The notes beneath the pieces were generated by a model. It worked only from the letters and a program-made list of their open reading frames with translations, ran no database searches and was not told the origin of the DNA. A DNA stretch of 35,100 bases. It comes from a virus. Position numbers and translations under genes: made by a program. This document shows positions 24,035-32,023 of the stretch, in pieces. Position 1 is the first letter of the stretch; every line of letters starts with the position of its first letter. Location of the stretch: the IMG/VR virus record IMGVR_UViG_3300021142_000092, positions 1 to 35,100 of that record, one strand, 5' to 3'.

Positions 24035-26827
24035 ATGTCAAATACAGTTTCAATTCTAAGTTACGCTAATACATTCTCCGATTGGATGGTCATAACCAAT
24101 TCTCTTGCAAAAGAGAATAATGATATTGCGGCGAACAATTATATTAAACCAACAGGAACATTGTACTTAAATGATCCTACATTAGGTTTACAAGTTGCAA
24201 ATAACTCCATCTTTGGTGGACAATTACAAGTTGTTGGTTTAGGTTCTTCTGCATACGTACAGAATAACTTCCGTGTAGATGGTCAAACATACTACACCAA
24301 TACACAATTAAGTATTGTTGCTTCTGGTCAGGCAAACATTAGTGGACCTATTCTAGCGATGGGTTCTGGTACAGGTCTAGCAGTATCAAACAATGCAACA
24401 ATTGGTGGTACAATACAAGTTGCAGGTGCAGGAACAATTGGTGGTGCTTTATCTGTAAGTGGTAATGAAACACTATATGGTAATCTATCAGTATCTGGTG
24501 TTACTACACTATCAAATACGGTTACTGTGAGTGGCATAACAAACATTTCCAACTCAGTCAATATTACTGGTGCAACAACCGTATCCAATAATTTCACATT
24601 CACATTGAATGGTTATGGTACAAATTTAACGTTGAACAACCAATTAACTGCTGCAGTTATTGTTGCTAATACTTCTGTCACTTCACCTAGTGCCACAATT
24701 TCAAACATCAACGCAAACAACATTTCAACAAACACATTCTCATTGAGTGGTTCATTGACAGTTGGTGGTAATGAGACAGTATCAGGCAATTTAAATGTTG
24801 TTGGTTCTACTTCAGTTGGTTATTTGAATTTTACAAATGGTTATTCAACTAATTTAACAACACAGAATCAAGTTACTGCAAACTATGTTGTTGCAAACAA
24901 TACAATCACATCTCCTGTTGCAACACACACAGTAACATATGCAAATAATGTATCAACAAATTACATTACTGCAAACAATACAATTACATCTAGTAATGTT
25001 ATTGCAACTTCATTGATAACTTCACCCACAATTAACGTAAGTAATATCAATGTTACAGGCAATGTCAATACATCCAATGTAAGTTCTTCTAATGGTTATT
25101 ATAATACATTAGTAGTAACAAATTTAACTGTTTCTAGTAACTTAGTATTAACTGGTACGCAAACAATTGCTTCCAATACAATACTTTTAAATTCTGGTAA
25201 CCCAACTCCAATCACATCATACTTCCAAGTGTATCGTGGTTCAGGCACACCTGCTGCTGTTCGTTGGAATGAAGGTTCACAATACTGGGATTTGAATGAT
25301 ATTAACAATAATACATTTTACAGAATCCATACAGATGAATTTTCAAGCAGTTCTTCAAGTTTAAACAGTACATCTAATGTTGCAACATCGGCTGCAGTTT
25401 ATAATGCAAACGTTTATCTATCTAATTTAATTGCATCAACAAATGCTTATGTTGGAACTGTTTATACTAAAGCAAATGGTGCAGTACAAACTTCATTTGT
25501 AACTCATATTGCAAATGGTGTATCAATTATATCAAGTTCCAATAATGATACAATTACATACACTGCTGCAACAAGTAATGGTATTAATGTTCTTGCAAAT
25601 TCAACTAATAAAACAATTGATTTTGGACTAAGAACTACTGGTGTTAATCCAACAACATACGGAAACACATCAAGTATTCCAACAATCACTGTTGACCAAT
25701 TTGGACGTGTGTTGAGTATTTCTAACACAACAGTTTCTATTCCATCTGGTACACAAATCTATGCAAACACTGGACAAATAAATGCAAATGCCAATACAGG
25801 CATCGTACAGATTGGTTTACCAACTGTTGTAACTGGTGGTTCTATTGGATCCAATACTAGTGTTCCTGTTATCACATACGATAATTTTGGACGTATTACT
25901 GGCGCAACAGGTGTAACAGTTGCAGGTGCTCCGGGTTCCACAGGACCTACGGGAGCAACTGGTGCCACAGGATCCACAGGTCTGACAGGAAATCAAGGTG
26001 CAACAGGTGCCACAGGTATTGGTGCAACAGGCGCAACAGGTGTACAAGGTGCAACCGGTGCAGCATCGACTGTTCCAGGTGCAACCGGTGCAACTGGCGC
26101 TACTGGACCTGGTTACACTTCTGCTGTTGTTAATATTAGCGGACACTTATTATTAACTAAAACAGATACTACACAAGTTGACCTAGGTTCTGTTATTGGT
26201 GCCACCGGTTCTCAAGGTGCCACAGGCAGTCAAGGTAATAACGGACTACAAGGTGCCACAGGAGCAACTGGTTCACAAGGTGCCACAGGAGCAAATTCAA
26301 CAGTTCCTGGTGCCACAGGTGCTACCGGATTGAGTGTGATTGGTGCAACTGGTGCCACAGGTCCTGCTTCAACAACTCCAGGTGCAACAGGTGCCACAGG
26401 ACAAGTTGGTGCAACAGGCGCTGGTTTATCCGCAGCATCTTCTGCACAAGTTTATTCATTAGGTGTTGGCACTTCTGCAACAGGAACACAAGGTCAAATC
26501 GTTGCAACTGGTCCTATCACCGCATATTACTCAGATGATAGATTGAAAACTCGTTTGGGTAACATTGAAAATGCATTAGACAAATTAACATCACTAAGTG
26601 GTTTCTACTACGAAGCCAATGAAGCTGCACAGGCATTAGGTTATCAAGTTAAACGTGAGGTTGGTCTTTCTGCTCAACAAGTACAGAAGATTATGCCAGA
26701 GATTACTCCACCTGCACCTATTGATAACCAATATTTGACCATTCAATATGAAAGATTGATTCCATTGATTGTAGAGTCTATTAAAGAACTTAAAGGACAA
26801 CTTGACGACATCAAAAAAATGATGTAA
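24035..26827 (+). CDS. Tail fibre with collagen-like repeats and self-cleaving S74 chaperone domain (930 aa)
   Basis: Residues 1-60 form an attachment segment. Residues about 80-340 are a beta stalk of G-N-x-S-V-S-G and S-N-x-x-T repeats. Residues about 631-796 are collagen-like Gly-X-Y, mostly G-A-T, split by a short beta insert (YTSAVVNISGHLLLTKTDTT). The last 98 residues are an intramolecular chaperone of the peptidase S74 family: YYSDDRLKTRLGNIENALDK, GLSAQQVQKIMPE, then YLTIQYERLIPLIVESIKEL. The Ser-Lys pair S833 and K838 has the five-residue spacing of the known S911/K916 dyad in phage K1F endosialidase, so cleavage before S833 is expected after trimerisation. The upstream motif at 24002 and AAAGG support the start. 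Receptor specificity probably lies between about 340 and 630, but cannot be stated. Confidence 0.85.
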   Translation: MSNTVSILSYANTFSDWMVITNSLAKENNDIAANNYIKPTGTLYLNDPTLGLQVANNSIFGGQLQVVGLGSSAYVQNNFRVDGQTYYTNTQLSIVASGQANISGPILAMGSGTGLAVSNNATIGGTIQVAGAGTIGGALSVSGNETLYGNLSVSGVTTLSNTVTVSGITNISNSVNITGATTVSNNFTFTLNGYGTNLTLNNQLTAAVIVANTSVTSPSATISNINANNISTNTFSLSGSLTVGGNETVSGNLNVVGSTSVGYLNFTNGYSTNLTTQNQVTANYVVANNTITSPVATHTVTYANNVSTNYITANNTITSSNVIATSLITSPTINVSNINVTGNVNTSNVSSSNGYYNTLVVTNLTVSSNLVLTGTQTIASNTILLNSGNPTPITSYFQVYRGSGTPAAVRWNEGSQYWDLNDINNNTFYRIHTDEFSSSSSSLNSTSNVATSAAVYNANVYLSNLIASTNAYVGTVYTKANGAVQTSFVTHIANGVSIISSSNNDTITYTAATSNGINVLANSTNKTIDFGLRTTGVNPTTYGNTSSIPTITVDQFGRVLSISNTTVSIPSGTQIYANTGQINANANTGIVQIGLPTVVTGGSIGSNTSVPVITYDNFGRITGATGVTVAGAPGSTGPTGATGATGSTGLTGNQGATGATGIGATGATGVQGATGAASTVPGATGATGATGPGYTSAVVNISGHLLLTKTDTTQVDLGSVIGATGSQGATGSQGNNGLQGATGATGSQGATGANSTVPGATGATGLSVIGATGATGPASTTPGATGATGQVGATGAGLSAASSAQVYSLGVGTSATGTQGQIVATGPITAYYSDDRLKTRLGNIENALDKLTSLSGFYYEANEAAQALGYQVKREVGLSAQQVQKIMPEITPPAPIDNQYLTIQYERLIPLIVESIKELKGQLDDIKKMM
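25927..26420 (+). repeat. Gly-Ala-Thr collagen-like repeat tract
   Basis: In-frame short repeats of the type GGTGCAACA/GGTGCCACA encode Gly-X-Y triplets in two blocks, separated by a non-collagen insert at about 26108-26204. Long direct repeats make this stretch prone to gain or loss of units and to assembly errors. Confidence 0.85.
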
Positions 26828-28012: not shown

Positions 28013-28363
28013 ATGCCAGCAGGATATCAAGACCAATACCTAGAACAAGGTGCTGACTTTAACAGTCAAATCACATTAGACGATAATTATGGAGTTCCAT
28101 ACAATCTAAATGGCTTCACAGTTTCTAGTCAGGCTAGACGTTCTTTCTATTCTGCTAATGCAACAATCATTTTTACCACACAGATAACAGATGCAAATAA
28201 TGGTGTTATCACCTTATCTGCTGATGCGGCCACGACCGCCAATGTTTCTCCAGGAGCAACAGGTAAACTGGTGTATGATGTTACAATCAGACAAACATCT
28301 AGTGGTTTAGTGACAAGAGTACTTGAAGGTCAAATATACGTATCTCCTTCTGTAACTAGATAA
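28013..28363 (+). CDS. BppU-like N-terminal domain protein (116 aa)
   Basis: This small beta protein reads MPAGYQDQYLEQGADFNSQI then TLDDNYGVPYNLNGFTVSSQ, RRSFYSANATIIFTTQI, NNGVITLSADAATTANV, LVYDVTIRQTSSG, and ends VLEGQIYVSPSVTR. The Q-G-A-D-F, L-D-x-x-G-x-P-x-x-L and L-V-Y-D-V steps are the pattern of BppU-type and related baseplate adaptor domains that anchor receptor-binding proteins. Here it stands alone rather than fused to a fibre, so it may form an adaptor ring or plug for the fibres that follow. The start has only a weak GAG upstream. It is followed by the 111-aa gene with a 9-nt gap. Confidence 0.65.
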   Translation: MPAGYQDQYLEQGADFNSQITLDDNYGVPYNLNGFTVSSQARRSFYSANATIIFTTQITDANNGVITLSADAATTANVSPGATGKLVYDVTIRQTSSGLVTRVLEGQIYVSPSVTR

Positions 28364-28372
28364 GGCGAATAG

Positions 28373-28708
28373 ATGCCATCAGTTACAGTCAATCCAATCT
28401 CCAGAATTAGCGTCAAAGTTAATCAAGGCAATCCACAAGTTGTCAAAGGCACAACTACATTTGTGGGTGCCACAGATGTTCAAAGTGAAATCAATCAAAT
28501 TAGTATTGAAGCAAACAATGCTGTAACAGCCTCAAATACCGCACTTTATTATGCAAACACCGGTTATGATTTTGTGACCATGGGTGGAACCGTATCAGGC
28601 AATGTTGCGATTGCTGACAATTTAGTAGTCAATAATTCCACATATGTTGCTGGTAATGTTGTTATTACTGGAGATTTTGTAGGAACTATTGACGGTGGTA
28701 CGTATTAA
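28373..28708 (+). CDS. Small fibre-like structural protein ending DGGTY (111 aa)
   Basis: The start is supported by AAGGCG before the ATG. The N-terminal part (MPSVTVNPISRISVKVNQGN then PQVVKGTTTFVGATDVQSEI) is beta. A short helical stretch with A-N-N-A-V-T-A-S-N-T-A follows, then three stalk-like beta steps (GGTVSGNVAIADNLVVNNST, YVAGNVVITGDFVGT), ending IDGGTY. It looks like a fibre shortened to an N-terminal attachment part plus one stalk turn, so it may be a connector between the 116-aa protein and a longer fibre. The last five residues belong to a motif shared with the 536-aa and 188-aa proteins downstream. Function is otherwise unknown. Confidence 0.65.
   Translation: MPSVTVNPISRISVKVNQGNPQVVKGTTTFVGATDVQSEINQISIEANNAVTASNTALYYANTGYDFVTMGGTVSGNVAIADNLVVNNSTYVAGNVVITGDFVGTIDGGTY
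28691..28705 (+). other. C-terminal DGG[T/S][F/Y] motif, copy 1
   Basis: The final codons GAC GGT GGT ACG TAT encode DGGTY just before the stop. The other copies are at 30334-30348 (GAT GGA GGT TCT TTC, DGGSF) and 30923-30937 (GAC GGC GGA ACA TTC, DGGTF). Codon choice differs at almost every position, so the shared peptide is not a recent DNA copy. Confidence 0.6.
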
Positions 28709-28714
28709 TAAATA
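28706..28714 (+). promoter_or_regulatory. TAATAAATA motif, candidate late promoter before the 536-aa fibre
   Basis: The motif starts in the stop codon of the 111-aa gene and lies 26 nt before the ATG at 28741. An AAAGGA ribosome site lies between them, the best spacing among the TAATAAATA copies. It differs from the TATAAATA consensus at one base. Confidence 0.4.
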
Positions 28715-28740
28715 AAGAATAATAATAAAAGGATTCTGAA

Positions 28741-30351
28741 ATGTCCATTTCAAACACAAATATTTTAATCAAACGTTCCCTTACGACTGGTATACCATCG
28801 TCTTTGAAACAGGGTGAATTTGCATACTCATATGCATCTAACACATTGTTCCTTGGTACTCCAGGTGGTAATGGTGTGGTTAACGTTGGTGGTCAATACT
28901 ATACCTCAACGCTCGATGCAGCAACTAATGCAAATACCGCATCGACTTTGGTTAAACGTGACACGAATGGTGCTTTTTACGGTAGATTATACGGTGTGGC
29001 CAACACCGCAGTTGCATTAGATACCGCAGAAAACTTTTCCATTTCAGGTGGAGACATTACTGCCAGTGCAGTCTCATTTAACGGCACCGCACCTGTAGTA
29101 CTCAATGCAGCTTTAAATGCAGTTCCGGGTCTATCCGCAGGGTTCTACGGCGGTTCAACAGTATCTTCTTCTACTATACCTGTCTTACAAGTTGCCGCCA
29201 ATGGACGCATTATGGCCATTGCCAATACGACAGTTACCAGTTCGTTCTCTGTTTCGGATGGCACAAGTAGTAATACAGTATTTTCAGGTTCAACTTTAAC
29301 ACTCAAAGCAAATACCAATTCTGGTATTACTACCAATGTAAATAATAACGAAACGATTTATTTCGGTGTAGATAATACAGTTGCACGTACCAATTTATCA
29401 TCGATTGGACCACAAACATTTAACACAGATATTATTTTACCAACCAATAATATGACAGTTGGTGGTACAATTACTGCACAAAATTTGGCCATTTCTGGTA
29501 ATATTACTTACGCAAATGCAGTATCGACATTGAACATTAGTGATCCTATGATTTACTTGGCATCAAACAATGCCGGTAACCTAGTTGATATTGGTATGGT
29601 TGCTCACTTTGTTGGCCAAGGAGCATCTGCATATTCACACTACCAACACACTGGTTTTGTACGTGACTATACAGATAATAAATGGAAATTATTCTCTAAT
29701 GTATCCATTGAACCCTCTACTACTGTTACATTTGATGCAAACACAATATATGATACAATTAAAGTTGGTGGTATCGATACATCAAATGGCGCAATCACGG
29801 CAGGTACATTAACACTTGCAGGTGGTTTAAGTGTTGGTGGATCTACAACATTAACTGGTCGAGCAAATACAACAAATGACTTAGGTGTTGGTGGTAACGC
29901 ATACTTGGCGGGAGGTTTAAGTGTTAGTGGTGCAGTAACTCTTTCTAATGCATTGACTGTGCCAAATGGTGGTACTGGTCAGGTATCATTCACCAATGGT
30001 TCTATCCTTGTGGGTTCTGGAACAGGAGCACTAGGCACATTAGCTAACACAACATACTCCAATACAGGTACATATGGTACCAACTCAACATTAATCGGTT
30101 TGACAGTAGATGCTTATGGTAGAACAACGTCTGCCGCATGGGCACCAATTGCTGGTTTAACAGTACCACAAGGCGGTACAGGTGTAACATCATTTACACA
30201 AAACGGTATCACTTATGGCAATGGCACAGGCGCAATGCAAGTTACTGCTGCGGCTGGTTCATCTGACCAAACATGGTCAAATCAAATCTTAACAGTAACC
30301 AATGCAGGTGTTCCTGTATGGTCATCCGCTATGGATGGAGGTTCTTTCTAA
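28741..30351 (+). CDS. Tail fibre protein ending DGGSF (536 aa)
   Basis: The N-terminus (NTNILIKRSLTTGIPSSLKQ then GEFAYSYASNTLFLGTPGG) is an anchor domain of the type I-x-x-K-R-S-x-x-x-G-x-x-P-x-x-L-x-x-G-E, also present at the start of the 359-aa fibre. After about residue 90 comes a long beta stalk with Asn/Thr/Gly repeats. Within it, about 255-330 is a compact domain (NISDPMIYLASNNAGNLVDI then HYQHTGFVRDYTDNKWKLFS) that looks less repetitive. G-G-T-G-x-x-S-F-T turns (VPNGGTGQVSFTNGSI; VPQGGTGVTSFTQNGI) recur near the C-terminus, as is common in phage fibres. It ends SAMDGGSF. AAAGGA supports the start. The receptor is unknown. Confidence 0.75.
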   Translation: MSISNTNILIKRSLTTGIPSSLKQGEFAYSYASNTLFLGTPGGNGVVNVGGQYYTSTLDAATNANTASTLVKRDTNGAFYGRLYGVANTAVALDTAENFSISGGDITASAVSFNGTAPVVLNAALNAVPGLSAGFYGGSTVSSSTIPVLQVAANGRIMAIANTTVTSSFSVSDGTSSNTVFSGSTLTLKANTNSGITTNVNNNETIYFGVDNTVARTNLSSIGPQTFNTDIILPTNNMTVGGTITAQNLAISGNITYANAVSTLNISDPMIYLASNNAGNLVDIGMVAHFVGQGASAYSHYQHTGFVRDYTDNKWKLFSNVSIEPSTTVTFDANTIYDTIKVGGIDTSNGAITAGTLTLAGGLSVGGSTTLTGRANTTNDLGVGGNAYLAGGLSVSGAVTLSNALTVPNGGTGQVSFTNGSILVGSGTGALGTLANTTYSNTGTYGTNSTLIGLTVDAYGRTTSAAWAPIAGLTVPQGGTGVTSFTQNGITYGNGTGAMQVTAAAGSSDQTWSNQILTVTNAGVPVWSSAMDGGSF

Positions 30352-30373
30352 TTTATTATAACAGGAGTTTAAT

Positions 30374-30940
30374 ATGAGTGAAAAGTATGTGAATTATTAT
30401 GTGGAGATAATGACTGGAACAATGCAAGATGCTGTTCTAAGAAATATCTCCCTACAAGCGAATTCAAAAGTAAGTGAAGAATTAATACAGGAACAACAAA
30501 ATAGAATACAAGAGTTGGAACATGAAATTGAGAAGCGTTCAAGTGAAGCAGAACAAATAAGAAAACTGAACGAAGAATTATCTAATACAAAAAATAATTA
30601 TGAATCGGTTAGACACCAAGTTACACACATTGATACTTTCAGAAATGAGTTGGTGAAAGAACGTGATGAACATCAAAAGACTCGTAATGAATATGATAAG
30701 AAGATACAAGAACTAACTCTTGAATTTGTTGGACAGTTAAAACTGTTACAAGATAAAATTGAATATCTGCAATTGAGTCCTGCCAAACGCAAGAAACTTG
30801 ACGATGCAAAGAATGTTGTTGAGGAGAAAAAGGAAATCATTCCATTGTCTTCCGCTACAGTGAAAAAGAAAACTCTTGAAGTTGTACCACATGAAACAAA
30901 AGTAGATAACAGTCAAGAAGAAGACGGCGGAACATTCTAA
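30374..30940 (+). CDS. Coiled-coil protein ending DGGTF (188 aa)
   Basis: A good AGGAG precedes the ATG. The N-terminal 30 residues (MSEKYVNYYVEIMTGTMQDA then VLRNISLQANSKVSEELI) form a short amphipathic head. Residues about 40-135 are an almost unbroken charged coiled coil (QELEHEIEKRSSEAEQIRKL). A basic linker (PAKRKKLDDAKNVVEEKKEI) and an acidic, probably disordered tail ending QEEDGGTF follow. It is not a fibre: it lacks beta repeats and its Lys/Glu-rich composition is unlike its neighbours. Placed between fibres and carrying the same C-terminal motif as two of them, it may be a fibre assembly factor, a scaffold, or an internal rod. That is inference; no known family is recognised. Confidence 0.7.
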   Translation: MSEKYVNYYVEIMTGTMQDAVLRNISLQANSKVSEELIQEQQNRIQELEHEIEKRSSEAEQIRKLNEELSNTKNNYESVRHQVTHIDTFRNELVKERDEHQKTRNEYDKKIQELTLEFVGQLKLLQDKIEYLQLSPAKRKKLDDAKNVVEEKKEIIPLSSATVKKKTLEVVPHETKVDNSQEEDGGTF

Positions 30941-30943
30941 TAA

Positions 30944-32023
30944 ATGACAATTGCAAATACAACAATTCAGTTAAAAAAATCTGGCGTACCGGGTAATGTA
31001 CCAACCACACTAAACTACGGTGAGTTGGGTATTAACTACGCCGATGGAAAGTTGTATTACAAAAATGCATTAGGTGCCATTGCTTCCATCTCAACTGGCA
31101 CTTCAACAAATTCTTTTTCAACCATTGTCTCTAATGGTTCCATCCTAGTTGCAACATCCAATACTGATATTCTATCATTCAATTCAACGAATGGTATCAG
31201 TATCAGTACAAACACAACAAGTAAGACAATCACATTTGATGGTTCTACCATACTGAACCTTGCAAATGGTAAAACATATACTTGGTATCAAAACACAGTA
31301 CCGTTAGCCGCAAACAATACTGATTTGTGGGTACATACTGATACCGCCAAAGTATATGAATATATAAACGGCAACACATGGATTGAATTTGGACCAACAC
31401 CTAATGCAGGTAATAATACTGGTCTTTTGTTTTTAACATTGAACACATTCAATGGTAATGGTTCAAACACAACATTCACACTAACACAGACACCAGTATT
31501 TGCAAACAATGTTATTGCTTCTGTTGATGGTATTGTACAGATACAGAATTCATATTCAATCATCAACAACACTATTGTGTTTTCGGAGCCACCATATAAT
31601 GGTTCCACAGTTGAAGTAAGAATCCTGTCAGGTACTGTTCAATTCACCAGTGATACAATCTATGCCAATACGATTATTTTCAATGGCACGAATTTACAAT
31701 CTGTTTTAAATTCACAAAATACAAGTATAAATCTGGCATCATCATTGGCCCAAAACGCTTACAATGCGGCTAATGCGGCTGGTTCTAGTACGTTTGTGCA
31801 GGCAGCCTTTAATGAGGCCAATTTGGCATATTCACTAGCCAATTCAGCATATGCAGCCGCCAACGCAGCAAGTTCAAGTGCAATTATAGATATAAACAGT
31901 ACGGTAATAACATCAAATGTGATTATAGGAAGTAATCACAATGGTCTTTCTGTTGGACCTATACTCATAAATAACGGAGCTAGCGTCACAATATCAAACG
32001 GACAACGCTGGGTAATTATCTAA
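30944..32023 (+). CDS. Tail fibre protein (359 aa) with shared N-terminal anchor
   Basis: The N-terminus (ANTTIQLKKSGVPGNVPTTL then NYGELGINYADGKLYYKN) matches the anchor domain of the 536-aa fibre in layout. Residues about 105-150 (YTWYQNTVPLAANNTDLWVH then YEYINGNTWIEFGP) form a small globular unit. About 155-225 is a beta domain. About 267-311 is the helical A-[FY]-x-x-A-N repeat (AQNAYNAANAAGSSTFVQAA). The end (NGLSVGPILINNGASVTISN then GQRWVII) is a short C-terminal cap that I recall from fibres of aquatic T4-like phages. The start lies 3 nt after the 188-aa gene and has no clear Shine-Dalgarno, so coupling to the upstream gene is likely. Confidence 0.75.
   Translation: MTIANTTIQLKKSGVPGNVPTTLNYGELGINYADGKLYYKNALGAIASISTGTSTNSFSTIVSNGSILVATSNTDILSFNSTNGISISTNTTSKTITFDGSTILNLANGKTYTWYQNTVPLAANNTDLWVHTDTAKVYEYINGNTWIEFGPTPNAGNNTGLLFLTLNTFNGNGSNTTFTLTQTPVFANNVIASVDGIVQIQNSYSIINNTIVFSEPPYNGSTVEVRILSGTVQFTSDTIYANTIIFNGTNLQSVLNSQNTSINLASSLAQNAYNAANAAGSSTFVQAAFNEANLAYSLANSAYAAANAASSSAIIDINSTVITSNVIIGSNHNGLSVGPILINNGASVTISNGQRWVII

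Follow-up and report, generated by a model that had tools for sequence, protein, structure and literature searches.

A C-terminal peptide motif paired with an N-terminal domain suggests a head-to-tail joint between consecutive tail-fibre segments of T4-like phages

Introduction

In phage T4, the trimeric gp36 binds to the N-terminal region of gp37, and the junction of the two proteins is believed to be contacted by fibritin (PMC3004832). In phage T5, the fibre is anchored by its N-terminus through p132, whereby a dodecamer ring of p132 around the tail, which has been described for T5 only, holds the fibre N-termini (PMC10038345).

In this study, we analysed a stretch of 35,100 nucleotides (the window), which represents a tail region of a T4-like myovirus and whose own record spans just these 35.1 kb. 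An earlier note on this DNA had pointed out that three neighbouring proteins end with DGG[T/S][F/Y] and had proposed a C-terminal docking tag. We know of no residue-level solution, even for T4, to the question of how a fibre segment recognises its proper neighbour.

Results

The Window Contains a Conserved Cassette With Three Tagged Genes

The three ORFs and their C-termini (IDGGTY, MDGGSF, and EDGGTF) were found exactly as described. They belong to a cassette with the following features, where the C-terminal tag is termed hook and an N-terminal domain of ~55 residues, which is common to the long fibre and the gene downstream of it, is termed eye:

28013..28363, + strand: LtfC/T5 p132-like adaptor, 116 aa, with which the conserved cassette begins
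28373..28708, + strand: anchor protein, 111 aa, with an N-terminal anchor motif and the hook DGGTY at 28691-28705, eye domain absent
28741..30351, + strand: fibre link, 536 aa, with an N-terminal eye (~28741-28917) and the C-terminal hook DGGSF (30334-30348)
30374..30940, + strand: charged coiled-coil-like protein (coil), 188 aa, with the hook DGGTF (30923-30937), eye domain absent
30944..32023, + strand: terminal segment, 359 aa, with an N-terminal eye (~30944-31105) assigned by the eye HMM and the locus grammar, C-terminal hook absent

In the gene order, the coil follows the tagged fibre and precedes the terminal eye protein, and the eye HMM identifies the genes at 28741 and 30944 as the eye carriers of the window. 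GGx[FY]-stop sites occur in the window only in the three tagged proteins (28373, 28741, and 30374), and the only GGNGGNNNNT[AT]YTRR sites in the 35.1-kb record are the three tag sites. The final 62 residues of the fibre link match phrog_15769 (E=1.4e-15). In the anchor alignment, the N-terminus and the tag are conserved and the middle is variable. A further fibre protein of the window (24035-26827) has collagen repeats, carries a Peptidase_S74 (endosialidase-type) chaperone domain at its C-terminus, and has no hook.

The adaptor gene at 28013 matches phrog_3304 (E=3.9e-18) and, by phmmer, T5 p132 (chain 7qg9_R, E=1.4e-3), and the AF2 model of the LtfC-like protein matches DT57C LtfC (8hqz, E=3.2e-9) and T5 p132 (7qg9, E=1.2e-8). 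The product of 28013-28363 thus shares an Ig-like fold and detectable sequence similarity with T5 p132 and DT57C LtfC and is likely a collar subunit that anchors the fibre. T5 p132 holds the N-terminus, i.e. the anchoring end, of its fibre, whereas the window tag is C-terminal.

The C-Terminal Motif Is Conserved and Restricted to a Small Gene Set

As the earlier note had said, the codons differ among the window tags (GGTGGT, GGAGGT, and GGCGGA). Across the relatives, synonymous codons for the Asp, Gly, and Phe of the tag vary freely, which argues for selection on the peptide and led us to reject a common origin of the tags by DNA duplication.

Related viral contigs (L001-L085, ~85 loci) share this cassette, whose proteins almost all end with D[G/A]Gx[F/Y], sometimes followed by one further S or T. 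The description as three neighbouring proteins ending with DGG[T/S][F/Y] therefore holds for the window but is too narrow for the relatives, which often have four adjacent tagged genes and a broader motif, [DN][G/A/C]Gx[FY], at times plus one S or T. When all ORFs located between the LtfC and coil genes were listed without bias, 181 of 204 were tagged; those without the tag are mostly near-variants, e.g. DSGFF and DMGFF. In T4-like cyanophages and pelagiphages (P-HM1, P-SSM2, S-CAM9, S-8S55, DSL-LC03, S-T4, S-SKS1, ACG-2014f, Mosig, and Melnitz), the motif is present on one or two proteins of the tail-fibre locus, usually directly upstream of the neck gene gp13.

Of the 3,466 genes in 15 larger genomes, only 22 end with [DN][GAC]Gx[FY](x). 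These are 19 fibre-chain genes, two coil genes, and one membrane-protein gene, and nothing else, which makes a chance occurrence of the tag implausible. In genome-wide pattern scans, which covered 40 contigs or records, the motif was likewise confined to these genes, apart from one antisense chance match; the motif at 147428 in P-HM1, which is antisense to PHM1_170, was dismissed as chance. Overall, the motif is specific in the genomes examined and is kept in homologues of the window proteins, so that neither of the findings that the earlier note had named as speaking against a docking tag was obtained.

Hooks and Eyes Alternate Along the Gene Order

The eye follows the sequence pattern I-K-[RK]-S ... 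P ... L..GE.A ... LF.G, and fibres from tagged loci served as the seed for its HMM. Nearly all of the ~86 loci obey the same grammar, namely the LtfC gene, a tagged anchor gene, one or two tagged eye genes, a tagged coil gene, and an untagged eye gene. In dereplicated pairs of adjacent genes, from which the coil had been removed, a tag on the first gene and an eye on the next one were both present in 187 pairs and both absent in 713, with 39 pairs being discordant. This corresponds to an odds ratio of ~360 with a tiny Fisher's p, although the loci are related, so that the odds ratio and the named exceptions matter more than the p-value. The discordant pairs that were listed mostly go back to near-variants (DSGFF, DMGFF, and ESGQY), to a coil gene in between, or to a terminal eye gene at another place in the genome.

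The alternation is most evident from the position of the eye proteins: internal ones are tagged in 94 of 95 cases, terminal ones in 0 of 57, i.e. the last segment has no hook. Behind the sole untagged internal eye protein (730 aa, in L079) comes a protein with no eye, and the same logic applies to L004, where an untagged long fibre likewise precedes such a protein. In place of the tag, these two fibres (L079 3634-5826 and L004 5074-7218) end with RIKLTTGQS[VL]TALSLQTAS[HN], and the protein after them has 248-249 aa and no eye (phrog_9417 for L079); the alternative C-termini perhaps represent a second kind of joint. A 65-aa protein of L017 is made up solely of an eye and a tag. In DSL-LC03 (L119 4806-6137) and C48C1 (L133 5338-6213), the N-terminus of the anchor is naturally fused to an internal eye. 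Such fusions provide useful Rosetta-stone evidence, suggesting that the anchor and the eye segment would be neighbours.

Two further observations were made in the contigs. In L296 (3980-4150), and with the same ORF in L295-L329 (~30 contigs), the eye is encoded by a 56-aa ORF, after which fibre-like sequence continues in another frame; this transition, at a conserved place, is a frameshift and perhaps a programmed one. In L109 (10479-13951; G004:50479-53951), four tandem proteins end with GSITF within a common C-terminal region, and they resemble paralogues more than proteins that have acquired a transferred tag.

Among the more distant viruses of a held-out set, the strict tag was present on the directly preceding gene for 68 of 110 eye genes and within two genes for 74 of 110, compared to 59 tagged genes among 865 background genes of these loci. 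The remainder includes looser variants such as IFGGTY and DGGTFIS. The tag-eye rule therefore holds strongly in T4-like phages and less so outside of them.

Tag and Eye Numbers Match and Residue -3 Follows the Eye Subtype

Tags were counted by a genome-wide DNA pattern and eyes by profile search, whereby coil tags, membrane-protein tags, and eyes fused inside the anchor were left out. The tag count equals the count of free eyes in 30 of 33 records, including genomes with 0:0 (rho 0.98; 0 of 20,000 permutations were as good), where the records are not phylogenetically independent and some counting choices were post hoc (exclusion of fused eyes, ESGQY of DC31 taken as a tag). In DSL-LC03 and C48C1, where the anchor is fused to an eye, the corresponding tag is missing, leaving one fewer or none, and HTVC008M, Bellamy, and S-CAM3 have neither tag nor eye. 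S-SCSM1 possesses a lone eye without a tag in the usual place, and this eye led to the tag IDAGFY on an unlinked 1025-aa fibre. G040/G046 have three eyes and two tags, and G006/G007 show a weak fourth eye.

Residue -3 of the tag depends on the eye that follows. It is A before QILRS eyes (25/26), with S or M in near-variants, G before all 42 KKS eyes and mostly also before IKRS eyes (47/56), and F before the gp37-type FKRS/T eyes (19/19). Such a covariation would be expected of a contact, but shared ancestry could also produce it.

Hook and Eye Are Also Present at the gp36-gp37 Joint of T4

The eye profile, which had been built from relatives of the window without T4, matches residues 6-57 of T4 gp37 (iE=1.7e-13). 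T4 gp36 ends with DFGYY, and its gene adjoins that of gp37. Among the Straboviridae-like loci with both genes in the stretch analysed, 29 of 29 end with DFGx[YF](S) before gp37. A proximal end of the type D-x-G-x-[FY] is thus common to the window tags, T4 gp36, and the 29 Straboviridae-like loci. With the T4 joint, the window shares the gp37-type eye, this end, and the adjacency of the genes, but it differs in having two joints in series, another anchor, a G where T4 has F at position -3, and a hook also on the coil. The likeness of anchor and gp36 that we claim concerns the C-terminal motif. Sequence searches for a solved structure of the eye, of gp36, or of the gp36-gp37 joint returned only spurious matches.

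The Tag Is Also Found on a Coil Protein and on a Predicted Membrane Protein

Coil homologues that were picked by homology and not by the tag are tagged in 45 of 46 dereplicated cases. Their tag columns contain ~4 bits per position, whereas the 20 columns before contain ~1 bit. The coil HMM gave no convincing match outside the freshwater group. In the replication region, the tag is present on a predicted membrane protein in three of the five genomes encoding it:

L090 4399-5427, L089 4397-5320, and L091 4870-6237, - strand: predicted membrane protein, located between uvsX and the gene for DNA polymerase, ending with DGGKF or DGGTF

The two remaining homologues stop just before the tag, which is appended after an otherwise alignable end, and relatives of the membrane protein in Mosig and other phages are untagged. 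Neither the coil nor the membrane protein has an eye of its own, and their tags are not accounted for by a chain of segments.

No Separate Phage Gene Follows the Tag

In a pan-genome comparison of nine genomes with and five without the tag, the two groups are separated by the tagged family alone, and no separate phage gene covaries with the tag as a candidate partner. The 76-kb phage DC31, whose virion genes are not T4-like, has in common with the group only the LtfC-like gene, the short protein, the fibre, the downstream fibre, and mostly metabolic genes. Taken together, these results suggest that the partner of the tag should lie in the cassette or be a host protein.

Discussion

Our data suggest that the hook constitutes a head-to-tail joint between consecutive tail-fibre segments and thereby generalises the gp36-gp37 joint, a reading to which we assign a probability of about 0.73. 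Both elements are conserved, they alternate gene by gene and match in copy number, and both are present at T4 gp36/gp37. The [DN]-[G/A/C]-G-x-[F/Y]-COOH hook would plug into the N-terminal eye of the next segment, with physical binding and a presumably trimeric stoichiometry. For the window, the predicted chain would run from the LtfC/p132-like collar adaptor (28013) to the anchor (28373, hook), the link (28741, eye and hook), and the terminal fibre (30944, eye only). The specificity of each joint may be given by residue -3, with A/S/M pairing with QILRS, G with IKRS/KKS, and F with gp37-type FKRS eyes. The earlier note's idea of a docking tag that is selected at the level of the peptide is well supported. 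The partners it had considered, a chaperone, a baseplate socket, or a packaging or processing protein, are unsupported, and we reassign this role to the N-terminal domain of the next fibre segment.

Closest to that proposal would be a trans-acting assembly chaperone or a host factor that reads the tag and handles all tagged proteins. A common soluble reader is conceivable, as the tag occurs on unrelated bodies including the coil and the predicted membrane protein, but we consider it unlikely, since no other phage gene tracks the tag, terminal fibres, which also need to fold, do not carry it, and equal numbers of tags and eyes would not be predicted. A socket in the baseplate or collar, in which the neighbouring LtfC/p132-like adaptor docks all tagged proteins, appears even less probable. 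The LtfC-like gene does lie upstream of the cassette in nearly all loci, also in the unrelated DC31, but LtfC-like proteins are encoded in tag-less genomes as well, the LtfC genes of P-SSM2 are far from the tags, and T5 p132 anchors the other end of its fibre. Moreover, in AF2 models of natural in-frame LtfC+anchor read-throughs, the LtfC domain is folded well and the tag is disordered (pLDDT below 50), which, coming from monomers only, is weak evidence against the LtfC-like protein as receptor.

It could also be that the motif is a mere conserved end of the trimeric fibre fold, i.e. a capping element without a partner. The 20 residues before the tag of the long fibre, including PVW, are conserved too. 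However, the coil, the membrane protein, and many anchor proteins conserve only the last five residues after variable tails, terminal fibres have no such motif, and the tag of the membrane protein is gained or lost as a unit. We regard this explanation as the most improbable one and favour the joint between hook and eye.

The hook of the coil would allow this protein to dock on an eye, probably as a whisker-like accessory or as a temporary cap, which is the weak step of the model. Such docking is plausible because T4 fibritin is believed to contact the joint of gp36 and gp37. Like T4 fibritin (wac), the coil would be a helical accessory protein near fibre genes, and by this analogy a whisker role is our guess. 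More tentatively, and with the odds somewhat against it, fibre assembly in T4-like phages might follow a C-terminal peptide code, in which residue -3 (A/S/M, G, or F), matched to the eye subtype, sets the segment order, and in which the hook has been copied onto the coil and the membrane protein for non-fibre factors to cap, tether, or time assembly.

The tail of bacterial SSB is a C-terminal peptide ligand and, like the window tag, a short acidic-to-aromatic motif that terminates unrelated proteins; the two are unrelated and share the principle only. In the open-access literature searched, we found no named or described motif of the present kind, in agreement with the earlier note. As far as searched, the kind of joint is known, whereas the motif and its generality were previously unrecognised.

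The finding raises the question of why a fibre hook is present on a membrane protein of the replication region and on a coil protein. The pairing of hook and eye may explain how fibres get joined in the right order, and the hook supplies a simple peptide for testing. With a two-part sequence signature for both sides of the joint, fibre chains could be read from genomes, and many unnamed small proteins of cyanophages and pelagiphages, e.g. T4-GC 113/114 of P-SSM2, would receive functions.
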